Shown: positions 14,045 through 16,724 of the stretch, one piece after another
How the letters are laid out: each line of letters opens with the position of its first letter
Numbering within the stretch: the stretch's first letter is position 1
NCBI RefSeq assembly: GCF_027214005.1
Contig: NZ_JAPWGY010000006.1
Span: 62,001-126,000 of the forward strand
Reading direction: 5' to 3'
DNA: 64,000 nucleotides
Source: Kiloniella laminariae
GTDB taxonomy: Bacteria; Pseudomonadota; Alphaproteobacteria; Kiloniellales; Kiloniellaceae
Program-made: the position numbers and the translations under genes
Notes under the pieces: generated by a model
The model's database searches: none
Seen by the model: the letters and a program-made list of their open reading frames with translations, nothing else
What the model was told of the DNA's origin: nothing

Positions 14045-14401
14045 TCAACAGAGGTCAAACCAGTCAGGCAAAAGGTGTTTACCATCTTCCCCCAATCGGA
14101 CAGCCCCATTCCGGCGGACAGCCGTAAGAGGCAACTCCCCATAGAGATGCGGGAACAGCTGACCACCTCGAGATTTTTCCCAGATCAGCTTCTGTCCCAA
14201 CAAGGCACCATCGACCTCAAGAAGAACAAGGTCATCTTGTCCTGCACGATGTTTCGCAACAGAAACCTGCAGTTGCTTTCCTGAAGAGAAATGAATAAAC
14301 CCGTCGGCCTGGTCCTGAGAGGACCCAGGATAAACACCGGCCTTATTGGCCTCTTTCCATTCTGTTGCCTTACAAACGTGATAAATCCACCGTTCAGCCA
14401 T
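14045..14401 (-). CDS. DUF952 family protein
   Basis: 118 residues starting MAERWIYHVCKATEWKEA, with GFIHFSSGKQL and LFPHLYGELPL, the signature segments of the DUF952 family, which is of glutathione-S-transferase-like small soluble type and has no known activity. The ATG at 14401 has AAGG eight bases upstream and is preferred to the GTG at 14410. It may be cotranscribed with pyrD. A pair of large inverted-repeat sites (14433-14477) begins 32 bp upstream of its start codon and is likely to regulate it, the small gene on the other side, or both. Confidence 0.85.
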   Translation of the reverse strand: MAERWIYHVCKATEWKEANKAGVYPGSSQDQADGFIHFSSGKQLQVSVAKHRAGQDDLVLLEVDGALLGQKLIWEKSRGGQLFPHLYGELPLTAVRRNGAVRLGEDGKHLLPDWFDLC

Positions 14402-14432: not shown

Positions 14433-14477
14433 GTTGCATATTGCAAAAACCACAGCCACGCATTTGCAATATGCAAC
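14433..14477. promoter_or_regulatory. Perfect 15-bp inverted repeat made of two TTGCA-N3-TGCAA sites
   Basis: GTTGCATATTGCAAA (14433-14447) and TTTGCAATATGCAAC (14463-14477) are exact reverse complements with a 15-bp spacer. Each arm is itself a palindrome, TTGCA-N3-TGCAA, and the two centres (14440 and 14470) are exactly 30 bp apart. They therefore lie on the same face of the helix, as expected for two dimers of one regulator. Confidence 0.75.
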
Positions 14478-14738
14478 AAAACTCAACACTTCAAACTTGA
14501 TATTCACCCAAGGGTTTCCCTTAAAGTCCGCAGAAATCCTATAGTTTTGAACACCACAAAAGAGTAACGGACAGCAGAAACACTACTGAAAAACGCCAAA
14601 TACCGCAGAAAACCTGACCTCCCCCTAAGATACAACTTCACAGAAACGCCAGAAAGAAAAATTGAATTCATATTTTTTCATTTAAATACATACAGTTAAA
14701 TAAAAACATTTAAAAAAACAAAACACTCTCCCAGAACT

Positions 14739-14752
14739 GGCACAGTCCATGC
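14739..14752 (+). promoter_or_regulatory. Sigma-54-like -24/-12 promoter
   Basis: CTGGCACAGTCCATGCA has GG (14739-14740) and GC (14751-14752) separated by exactly ten bases, with a TGGCAC -24 element and an ATGC -12 element (consensus TTGC). The predicted start of transcription near 14764 falls just before the leader hairpin. An A/T-rich stretch (14655-14725) that could bend lies upstream. Confidence 0.5.
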
Positions 14753-14766
14753 AATTACTACTTTCA

Positions 14767-14792
14767 GGAAGTCTATTGCGAGCTAGACTTCC
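14767..14792 (+). promoter_or_regulatory. Leader hairpin upstream of the 69-residue gene
   Basis: GGAAGTCTA (14767-14775) and TAGACTTCC (14784-14792) make a perfect 9-bp stem with an 8-nt loop. It sits 8 bases ahead of the Shine-Dalgarno AGGAGAG (14801-14807), so it is placed to affect translation or message stability. Confidence 0.65.
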
Positions 14793-14811
14793 ATCACGAA
14801 AGGAGAGACCC

Positions 14812-15021
14812 ATGGCACATCAAAACATGACAGCGAGCACCATCGGCAGCAGGGCATTGGCAACTGCCCTAGACGCCGTTTCCGCCATGGGACAAACCGG
14901 TCATCTAATAATACCGGAAACTCCGACCCCGGCGATGCTCAAAGCAGGATCGCTAATCGGTGGCTTGAGCGAAGAGACAGTAAGAAAAATCTTCGTTTCT
15001 ATGATTGAGGCAGAACAATAA
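14812..15021 (+). CDS. Small hypothetical protein, 69 residues
   Basis: I do not recognise the family. The ATG at 14812 has a strong AGGAGAG ribosome-binding site. The product starts MAHQNMTASTIGSR, is rich in Ala/Thr/Met, and ends with an amphipathic helix-like stretch (GLSEETVRKIFVSMIEAEQ). It has no signal peptide, membrane segment or cysteine. A sigma-54-like promoter, a leader hairpin and a tandem hairpin/terminator frame it as an independently controlled monocistronic unit. About 260 bp of A/T-rich noncoding DNA lies upstream. The flanking regulatory DNA is the main argument that it is a real gene. Confidence 0.65.
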   Translation: MAHQNMTASTIGSRALATALDAVSAMGQTGHLIIPETPTPAMLKAGSLIGGLSEETVRKIFVSMIEAEQ

Positions 15022-15054
15022 CCCCCTCACTGCATCAATCATAGATGTCATCAC

Positions 15055-15118
15055 AGACTGCCTTTAGCCTGTGAAAGGCGGTCTACCAAAGCGGGAAGCT
15101 TGCTTCCCGCTTTTTTTT
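15055..15118 (+). terminator. Tandem 3' hairpins ending in a strong terminator
   Basis: The first stem is AGACTGCCTTT (15055-15065) with AAAGGCGGTCT (15074-15084), 11 pairs including one G-U. The second is GCGGGAAG (15091-15098) with CTTCCCGC (15103-15110), followed by eight T. The second is a textbook Rho-independent terminator for the 69-residue gene; the first may protect the 3' end. Confidence 0.88.
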
Positions 15119-16094: not shown

Positions 16095-16724
16095 ATGCTG
16101 AAGCACGCAGACATCTGGCGAGCCATCGACAGTCTCGCCACCCGAAATTCTCTTTCCCCCTCGGGCCTTGCCCGCAAGGCAGGGCTGGATCCAACAACCT
16201 TTAATAAAAGCAAGCGGATTACCCCTCAAAACAAACAGCGCTGGCCCAGCACGGAATCCATAGCCAAGATTCTCGCTGCAACAAACTCCACTCTGGCAGA
16301 ATTTGTCGAACTCGTCGGCGGAGAAAGTGGCGGCCTGCTCGCCCAACGCATCCCTGTACTAGATCTCACTCATGCTGCATCTGGCAAAAACTTTGATCCG
16401 CAAGGCAGGCCAACAGGCAACAGTTGGGATGAAACACTCTTTGCCCATGTCGACGATCCCGCAGCCTATGGACTGGAAATTATTGGAAGCCTCTATGCTC
16501 CGATCTACAACGACGGCAATGTCCTGATTGTCTCACCTGCCGCAGATCTCAGGCGGGGTGACAGAGTGGCCGTCATGACCAAAAATTTCCAAATTCTGAT
16601 CAAAGAACTTATACGTAACAGTCCCTTAAAGGTGGAACTGAAAGGATTGGGATCACAGGAAGATAAATCTTATCTTGCCCAGGACATCATCTGGATCGCC
16701 CGCATTCTCTGGGTCAGCCAGTAA
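16095..16724 (+). CDS. XRE/S24-like transcriptional regulator lacking the catalytic serine
   Basis: 209 residues. The N-terminal helix-turn-helix (about 20-65; LSPSGLARKAGLDPTTFNKSKR) is followed by a LexA/CI-type S24 domain (about 125-205). In active S24 proteases the segment reads G-D-S-M-x-P. Here it is IIGSLYAPIYNDGN, so the nucleophile serine position is Leu, while the lysine region (ILIKELIR) is kept. Self-cleavage is therefore unlikely, and it probably acts as a ligand- or partner-controlled repressor. A TATAAT (16034-16039) lies about 55 bp upstream. No phage genes surround it, so it is more likely a resident regulator than a prophage remnant. Confidence 0.8.
   Translation: MLKHADIWRAIDSLATRNSLSPSGLARKAGLDPTTFNKSKRITPQNKQRWPSTESIAKILAATNSTLAEFVELVGGESGGLLAQRIPVLDLTHAASGKNFDPQGRPTGNSWDETLFAHVDDPAAYGLEIIGSLYAPIYNDGNVLIVSPAADLRRGDRVAVMTKNFQILIKELIRNSPLKVELKGLGSQEDKSYLAQDIIWIARILWVSQ

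Follow-up and report, generated by a model that had tools for sequence, protein, structure and literature searches.

Upstream of a gene for a 69-residue protein in Kiloniella laminariae lie a sigma-54-like promoter and, close to the start of a divergent gene, two palindromes. The locus raises the question of which regulator uses these sites, and what the transcript that they would control does. We analyzed a 64,000-nt stretch of DNA, referred to here as the window (GCF_027214005.1, NZ_JAPWGY010000006.1, positions 62,001-126,000 of the forward strand), together with related genomes. The results point to a LuxO-activated, sigma-54-dependent, quorum-linked unit of ~350 nt as the probable identity of the locus, a reading in which the role of the RNA is left open.

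Sigma-54 promoter and conservation of the locus

The elements of the locus are listed in Table 1. An earlier note on this DNA had read it as a sigma-54 gene under enhancer control, with a pair of activator sites, and our results support that reading, to which they add the type of activator, the constraint on the RNA and the luxI-luxR connection; the layout is conserved, and the genome encodes RpoN and eight clear sigma-54 activator domains (four further weak matches were other AAA proteins). The GG-N10-GC promoter that the note described is present, with GG at 14739-14740 and GC at 14751-14752, and it differs at one position from TGGCAC-N5-TTGCW. Sigma-54 matches with up to two mismatches occurred in the window at chance level (42 versus 40.2 expected), and therefore the match alone was unconvincing; it is the conservation of the element that persuades. 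Genome-wide, matches with up to one mismatch were approximately twofold more frequent than those of a reversed-pattern control (80 and 77 versus 40 and 33).

Table 1. Features of the locus (positions in the window)
Feature	Positions	Strand	Remarks
LuxO-type enhancer site 1, TTGCATATTGCAA	14434-14446	.	exact TTGCAWWWTGCAA match
LuxO-type enhancer site 2, TTGCAATATGCAA	14464-14476	.	exact TTGCAWWWTGCAA match, 30 bp from site 1
A/T-rich stretch, possible bend	14655-14725	.	86% A+T; without a clean IHF site in the window
Sigma-54 (-24/-12) promoter, TGGCACAGTCCATGCA	14738-14753	+	0-1 mismatch in 15/18 loci
Predicted transcription start	14764	+	inferred: 12 bases past the -12 GC
5' leader hairpin H1, GGAAGTCTA-TTGCGAGC-TAGACTTCC, loop TTGCGAGC	14767-14792	+	
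Ribosome-binding site AGGAG	14801-14805	+	
69-residue protein gene	14812-15021	+	homologues in 18/98 genomes of relatives
RNA hairpin H2 across stop codon, loop with UAACCCCCUCAC	15001-15042	+	compensatory changes in 3/10 pairs
RNA hairpin H3, loop AGCCUGUG	15055-15084	+	compensatory changes in 6/9 pairs counted
Intrinsic terminator H4 with T tract	15088-15118	+	compensatory changes in 2/11 pairs

Comparison of the region among relatives revealed that the promoter, with no more than one mismatch, and palindromes 30-33 bp apart recurred together in 15 of the 18 oriented loci, nine of them from Kiloniella, four from a sister genus (the Pelagibius/Denitrobaculum group) and two from a genus in another family. 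Both sites had 0-1 mismatch in six of the nine Kiloniella loci, the second site having two mismatches in L007, L009 and L011; the sites of the two loci from the other family were degenerate, with three mismatches each. In the sister genus, the pair lies 87-118 bp from the promoter. The layout was also found in two more distant genomes, G178, which is described below, and G081, where a sigma-54 match with one mismatch is located 61 bp before the start of the gene and degenerate sites (two and three mismatches) lie 33 bp apart. Sites and promoter were present at a contig end in G006, with the small gene off the contig. Three longer homologues (L019, L020 and L022), all from genomes without a LuxO-type protein, had neither the promoter nor the site pair.

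The leader hairpin described in the earlier note is present as well, three bases past the predicted +1. The proposed bend region is supported in part. It corresponds to the A/T-rich stretch, whose A+T content compares with 49% window-wide, and in five of the nine Kiloniella loci an IHF-like site with 0-1 mismatch to the consensus WATCAANNNNTTR was found 116-127 bp upstream of the start codon; the best IHF match in the window itself has two mismatches.

Paired palindromes of the LuxO type

The two palindromes are reverse complements of each other with starts 30 bp apart, which confirms the pair and gives the sense in which its members had been called identical. Their centres lie ~294 and ~324 bp before +1, correcting the 260-330 bp upstream given before. 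NtrC-type sites were rejected, as NtrC sites are spaced more widely than this pair. The pattern TTGCA-N3-TGCAA occurred twice in the window, both times in the pair, versus 0.17 expected, and only one of 100 shuffled windows reached two. A search of the 4.38-Mb genome placed it at six positions, of which the four outside the pair comprised three inside long open reading frames and one located ~56 bp upstream of the first ATG in a reading frame. Scanning the genome for more sites to define a regulon gave no convincing one.

The accessible part of a V. fischeri study gives TTGCAWWWTGCAA as the LuxO upstream activating sequence of Vibrio qrr genes and describes two copies in the qrr1 promoter (PMC10162802). 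In V. cholerae, five LuxO ChIP-seq peaks were reported, four of them at qrr genes, and TTGCAAAATGCAA, TTGCAATTTGCAA and TTGCATTTTGCAA, found here and in relatives, are identical to the LuxO sites given for qrr1-4 in the portion of that report available (PMC10328515). The locus thus carries paired TTGCAWWWTGCAA sites upstream of a sigma-54 promoter, as expected of a LuxO enhancer.

The start of the divergent DUF952 gene, at 14401, lies so near the palindromes that the ownership of the sites needed testing. In one alternative, the palindromes would be the operator of this gene (-pyrD), bound by another regulator and unrelated to the sigma-54 promoter; they are ~33 bp from the DUF952 start versus ~290-330 bp from the sigma-54 start, and DUF952 stands beside the gene in eight of nine Kiloniella loci and in the sister-genus loci. 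We rejected it as very improbable on the evidence of a second copy in G008 (L007; 8.2 kb in L068), in which the pair (one exact site and one with two mismatches), the promoter and the transcript are kept without the DUF952, RsuA-like and HTH/S24 genes, so that the sites stay with the small gene when these neighbours are absent. Also against it are the short distance between pair and promoter in the sister genus, where the same sites also precede an unrelated sigma-54 transcript, the presence of pair and promoter beside pyrD in G178 (read by eye), and the motif itself, which is that of a sigma-54 activator in the available part of PMC10162802.

We also searched 385 alphaproteobacteria blindly for pairs of exact sites at a distance of 4-34 bp. 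Four genomes matched (the window genome, G178, G233 and G414), and a control pattern matched none. In G178, which belongs to another family, a 74-codon gene is preceded at a distance of 64 bp by a perfect promoter, TGGCACGCGACTTGCT; this gene is a homologue of that for the 69-residue protein (32.1 bits; the best of 2000 shuffles scored 9.1). Read in stretches, this genome also encodes RpoN, a LuxO (55% identity, 516 bits) and two other activators (278 and 253 bits), which by eye were named FlbD-type and NtrX-type. In G233 and G414, the locus had no sigma-54 match with up to one mismatch.

A LuxO-type activator and a candidate LuxU-like partner

One of the eight activators of the window genome (L027) was closest to LuxO in both comparisons, with wide margins. 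Its best PDB match was LuxO 5ep0 (475.7 bits; first non-LuxO chain, 331.8), and its best NCBIfam model was LuxO (645.2 bits; next model, 406.7); the other two activators scanned, L024 and L025, scored 340.1 and 263.9 bits against the same model. The protein contains a receiver domain, an AAA+ domain with GAFTGA and a Fis-type helix-turn-helix (HTH). As its score is below the NCBIfam equivalog cut-off of 800, we regard it as a LuxO homologue and have not filed it as a Vibrio equivalog. The available part of a V. cholerae study names 11 HTH residues essential in LuxO (PMC11407668), of which L027 matches seven, including five of six in the recognition helix STIYRKK.

An enhancer-binding protein other than LuxO might use the sites while sigma-54 control holds, and the eight clear activators in the genome supply candidates, among which L026 and L030 equal L027 at seven of these 11 positions; in the accessible text of PMC10162802, the sites of V. 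fischeri SypG overlap those of LuxO. We consider this unlikely, since five of the six recognition-helix residues were matched only by L027 and the other activators scored (L031 was left out) matched one to four, with three for L026 and four for L030. In addition, G178, which was found by its sites alone, has three clear activators, and one of them is of the LuxO type.

LuxO-type proteins (at least 361.9 bits; the next group scored at most 323.8) were found in 30 of 98 genomes. Where the homologue of the small gene has a sigma-54 match, 13 of 15 genomes encode such a protein, a count in which the genomes are related and thus not independent; the two exceptions, G005 and G050, are 77% and 90% complete. 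Among genomes whose homologue lacks the promoter, G025, G048 and G059 lack LuxO and G051, found by profile, has it; in these related genomes, 16 of the 30 with a LuxO-type protein do not have this sigma-54 gene. At least one exact LuxO-type site was detected in 16 of 26 genomes searched, and a control site in four of 26.

A gene for a 117-residue Hpt protein adjoins luxO, and its sole NCBIfam match was LuxU, at 45.5 bits versus a cut-off of 140. By motif search, a LuxU-like gene was found beside seven of eight Kiloniella luxO loci and, within 1.5-kb flanks, beside none of 22 luxO loci outside Kiloniella. A 2004 survey of 138 genomes reported LuxU orthologues only in Vibrio, according to the part of the text available (PMC524169). 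Taken together, the sites, their conservation and the activator make it very probable that the unit is under LuxO and sigma-54 control.

The small protein and its possible link to luxI-luxR

No Pfam or NCBIfam family was found for the 69-residue protein, and its sole PHROGs match was phrog_5913 (E 0.0018), a family of unknown function. Homologues matched none of the phage records; weak matches were found to three plasmid records, and the two Skermanella plasmid records examined contained no sigma-54 or upstream-activating-site match. The AlphaFold model, with three helices, was poor (pLDDT 64.9, pTM 0.35).

Profile searches revealed a second small gene, whose product contains the module GSRAL-x2-ALDAV-x-AM. 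In the window genome, the order is luxI (PF00765), luxR and this small gene (G000:C11, ~388-390 kb). Searching with PF03472, we found eight Kiloniella LuxR loci, with the second small gene just downstream of luxR in six (not L165 or L166); outside Kiloniella, it accompanied none of nine LuxR loci. G004 (100% complete) and G006 (97%) gave no LuxR hit, and G006 has another paralogue. Comparison of the two small families by hhalign gave 96.3% and E 1.7e-9 over 27 columns, from a pairwise comparison of shallow alignments, and the profile of the second family recovered all nine sigma-54 genes of Kiloniella, with E no higher than 2.1e-6, and the four from the sister genus (E 0.002-0.004). The region common to both families is the N-terminal module.

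In view of this LuxR-linked paralogue, the most likely function of the unit is to pass the state of a LuxO phosphorelay on to acyl-homoserine-lactone quorum sensing, and on balance we lean towards a link to luxI-luxR. The LuxR anti-activators TraM and QslA are small proteins genetically linked to a LuxR-type regulator; by analogy, the likeness here would lie in that genetic link, through homology to the luxR-side gene.

Structure and constraint of the transcript

The predicted 357-nt transcript folded better than all of 100 shuffled sequences (z -7.0). Covariation was assessed in nine Kiloniella sequences over 38 pairs in four hairpins, the structure being drawn from the same alignment, which favours it. 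With that bias, 98.0% of the positions remained paired across the nine sequences, and 11 pairs had changes on both sides versus 4.2 after shuffling (0/500 shuffles reached this). The covariation score was likewise higher, at 0.238 versus 0.130 shuffled (0/500), and slid controls gave at most 0.096; the count of further pair types, one of five measures, was not significant (19 versus 17.7, 165/500). H1 is mostly invariant, with one pair broken in some species and no compensatory change; H2 exposes ACCCCCUCAC, and most compensations are in H3.

The nucleotide sequence of the reading frame is constrained as well. Over 21 genome pairs, pS of the small gene was 0.246 in codons 2-28 and 0.330 in codons 29-69, and that of luxO was 0.739; among 474 luxO windows of 27 codons, the lowest value was 0.594. 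Control values were 0.770 for DUF952, 0.783 for RsuA and 0.810 for HTH/S24 (eight genomes each), so that synonymous divergence in the Kiloniella small gene is two to four times below that of the four control genes (0.25-0.33 versus 0.74-0.81). In the sister genus, the small gene showed no RNA constraint (pS 0.475 versus 0.520 for luxO in the same three genomes), and its pN/pS shows that the protein is conserved. A conserved reading frame together with independent RNA constraint, as expected of a dual-function RNA, was thus found in Kiloniella and not in the sister genus. As the sister genus conserves the protein only, the protein would be the ancestral product and the RNA constraint an apparent Kiloniella feature.

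An Rfam search of the transcript gave only sub-threshold matches, the best being MicF (30.7 bits versus a gathering score of 79), and nothing Qrr-like at E up to 1. The promoter is of the LuxO- and sigma-54-controlled type that marks Qrr RNAs; we have not filed the transcript as a Qrr because it matched no curated RNA family. Duplex tests of three RNA loops against the leaders of luxI, luxR and the paralogue (48 comparisons) gave five results at p <=0.03, with no pair shared by two species.

These results bear on the strongest alternative, that the locus is an ordinary sigma-54-dependent small-protein gene whose low pS comes from codon bias or mRNA stability, whose hairpins are stabilisers and a terminator, and which includes no RNA regulator. 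Outside Kiloniella the protein family is conserved too, its pN of 0.120 being much lower than its pS of 0.565, which agrees with this alternative, as do the Rfam result, the lack of a consistent base-pairing partner for the loops and the sister genus without RNA constraint. It accounts less readily for a pS below that of every luxO window of the same length, and for compensatory changes in H2 and H3, the former extending across the stop codon. We give this alternative a substantial probability, somewhat short of even. The evidence for a regulatory role of the RNA in Kiloniella is, in our judgement, evenly balanced.

A long-range pairing was also predicted between the ribosome-binding site GGAGA (window 14805 region) and UCUCC in the reading frame (A2 columns 162-166). 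It is kept at four of five pairs in all nine sequences, and, if the predicted fold forms, translational self-control is possible.

Proposed circuit and comparison with known systems

In the reading that we prefer, LuxO/sigma-54 control of a quorum-linked unit, an upstream kinase would phosphorylate the LuxU-like Hpt protein and, through it, the LuxO-type regulator; in Vibrio, LuxO is phosphorylated at low cell density. Phospho-LuxO would bind both TTGCAWWWTGCAA sites, and the DNA would loop over the A/T-rich stretch, perhaps with the help of IHF, bringing LuxO into contact with RpoN-RNA polymerase, which would start near 14764. The resulting transcript would consist of the 5' hairpin, the 69-codon reading frame, two conserved 3' hairpins and the terminator. 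In Kiloniella, the RNA would probably have a function of its own as well. The small protein, whose N-terminal helix module is also that of the luxR-linked protein, might bind LuxR or compete there; base pairing of the C-rich H2 loop with purine-rich leaders is also conceivable. More tentatively, and with a probability that we place well below even, this would be an alphaproteobacterial LuxU-LuxO-sigma-54 quorum circuit in which a Kiloniella dual-function mRNA replaces the Vibrio Qrr and connects LuxO to acyl-homoserine-lactone signalling through both protein and RNA, with sister genera having a plain small-protein gene and a separate LuxO-driven, apparently non-coding RNA.

Features in common with the Vibrio LuxO-qrr system are the pair of TTGCAWWWTGCAA sites, the sigma-54 promoter, an activator of the LuxO type with a LuxU-like candidate partner, a short transcript that is structured and ends in a terminator, and a small dedicated regulon. 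The unit differs from that system in several respects: the transcript in Kiloniella carries a gene for a 69-residue protein and shows no detectable similarity in sequence to Qrr, the sites lie 290-330 bp upstream, and its host is an alphaproteobacterium. As far as the available part of the report on V. cholerae VcdRP shows (PMC8672173), that dual-function RNA is similar in having a small reading frame in a structured, nucleotide-constrained RNA; the differences are LuxO and sigma-54 control, a larger reading frame and no known target in our case. A glutamine synthetase mRNA that releases a 3' UTR small RNA (PMC9731577) is comparable in its structured 3' part, and sigma-54 is mentioned in the accessible text; there the protein is a metabolic enzyme, whereas here it is a small protein of unknown function.

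LuxO, sigma-54 enhancers and dual-function RNAs are known; their combination, the host group and the coupling to luxI-luxR did not turn up in the literature that we searched. To our knowledge, LuxO-Qrr control has been described from Vibrionaceae. Our literature search, with most subscription journals outside its range, found no LuxO-controlled transcripts in alphaproteobacteria. The results suggest a connection between two signalling systems that are usually investigated separately. If so, marine alphaproteobacteria would gain a LuxO regulon whose promoter is defined and whose activator is easily tested; the locus would also add a new structured RNA, a family of small proteins with a link to LuxI-LuxR, and an example of an mRNA gaining or losing an RNA function between genera.

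Other candidate LuxO-type targets and neighbouring elements

In the sister genus, we observed paired sites 19 bp apart, located ~150-190 bp before another sigma-54 promoter. This promoter precedes a conserved, apparently non-coding RNA of ~140 nt with a terminator (L134:1741-1880; L128 on the reverse strand, L129 and L136). The RNA was present in all four sister-genus genomes, and elsewhere among the 98 genomes only one 22-base match was found. It matched no Rfam family, and no Qrr at E up to 1; we consider it a candidate Qrr-like small RNA. At the G233 locus of the blind search (L153), with no sigma-54 match of up to one mismatch, three exact LuxO-type sites lie within 78 bp. In G034 (L118), a pair of divergent perfect sigma-54 promoters near luxO flanks two sites, and in G018 (L130) one site and a promoter stand before two genes, one for a molybdopterin-domain protein and one for a histidine kinase, ~5 kb from luxO. 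The molybdopterin-domain proteins at L118 and L130 and the membrane histidine kinase are possible cognate sensors.

A regulator with an HTH and an S24-peptidase-like domain is encoded near the small gene at 16095-16724 of the window, and a relative of it lies directly 3' of the small gene in L017 and L018. Between enhancer and promoter, the motif CCGCAGAAA is found at window positions 14528 and 14603, 75 bp apart, and its variants recur near -284 and -209 in most Kiloniella loci. The repeats are possible sites for a further regulator.
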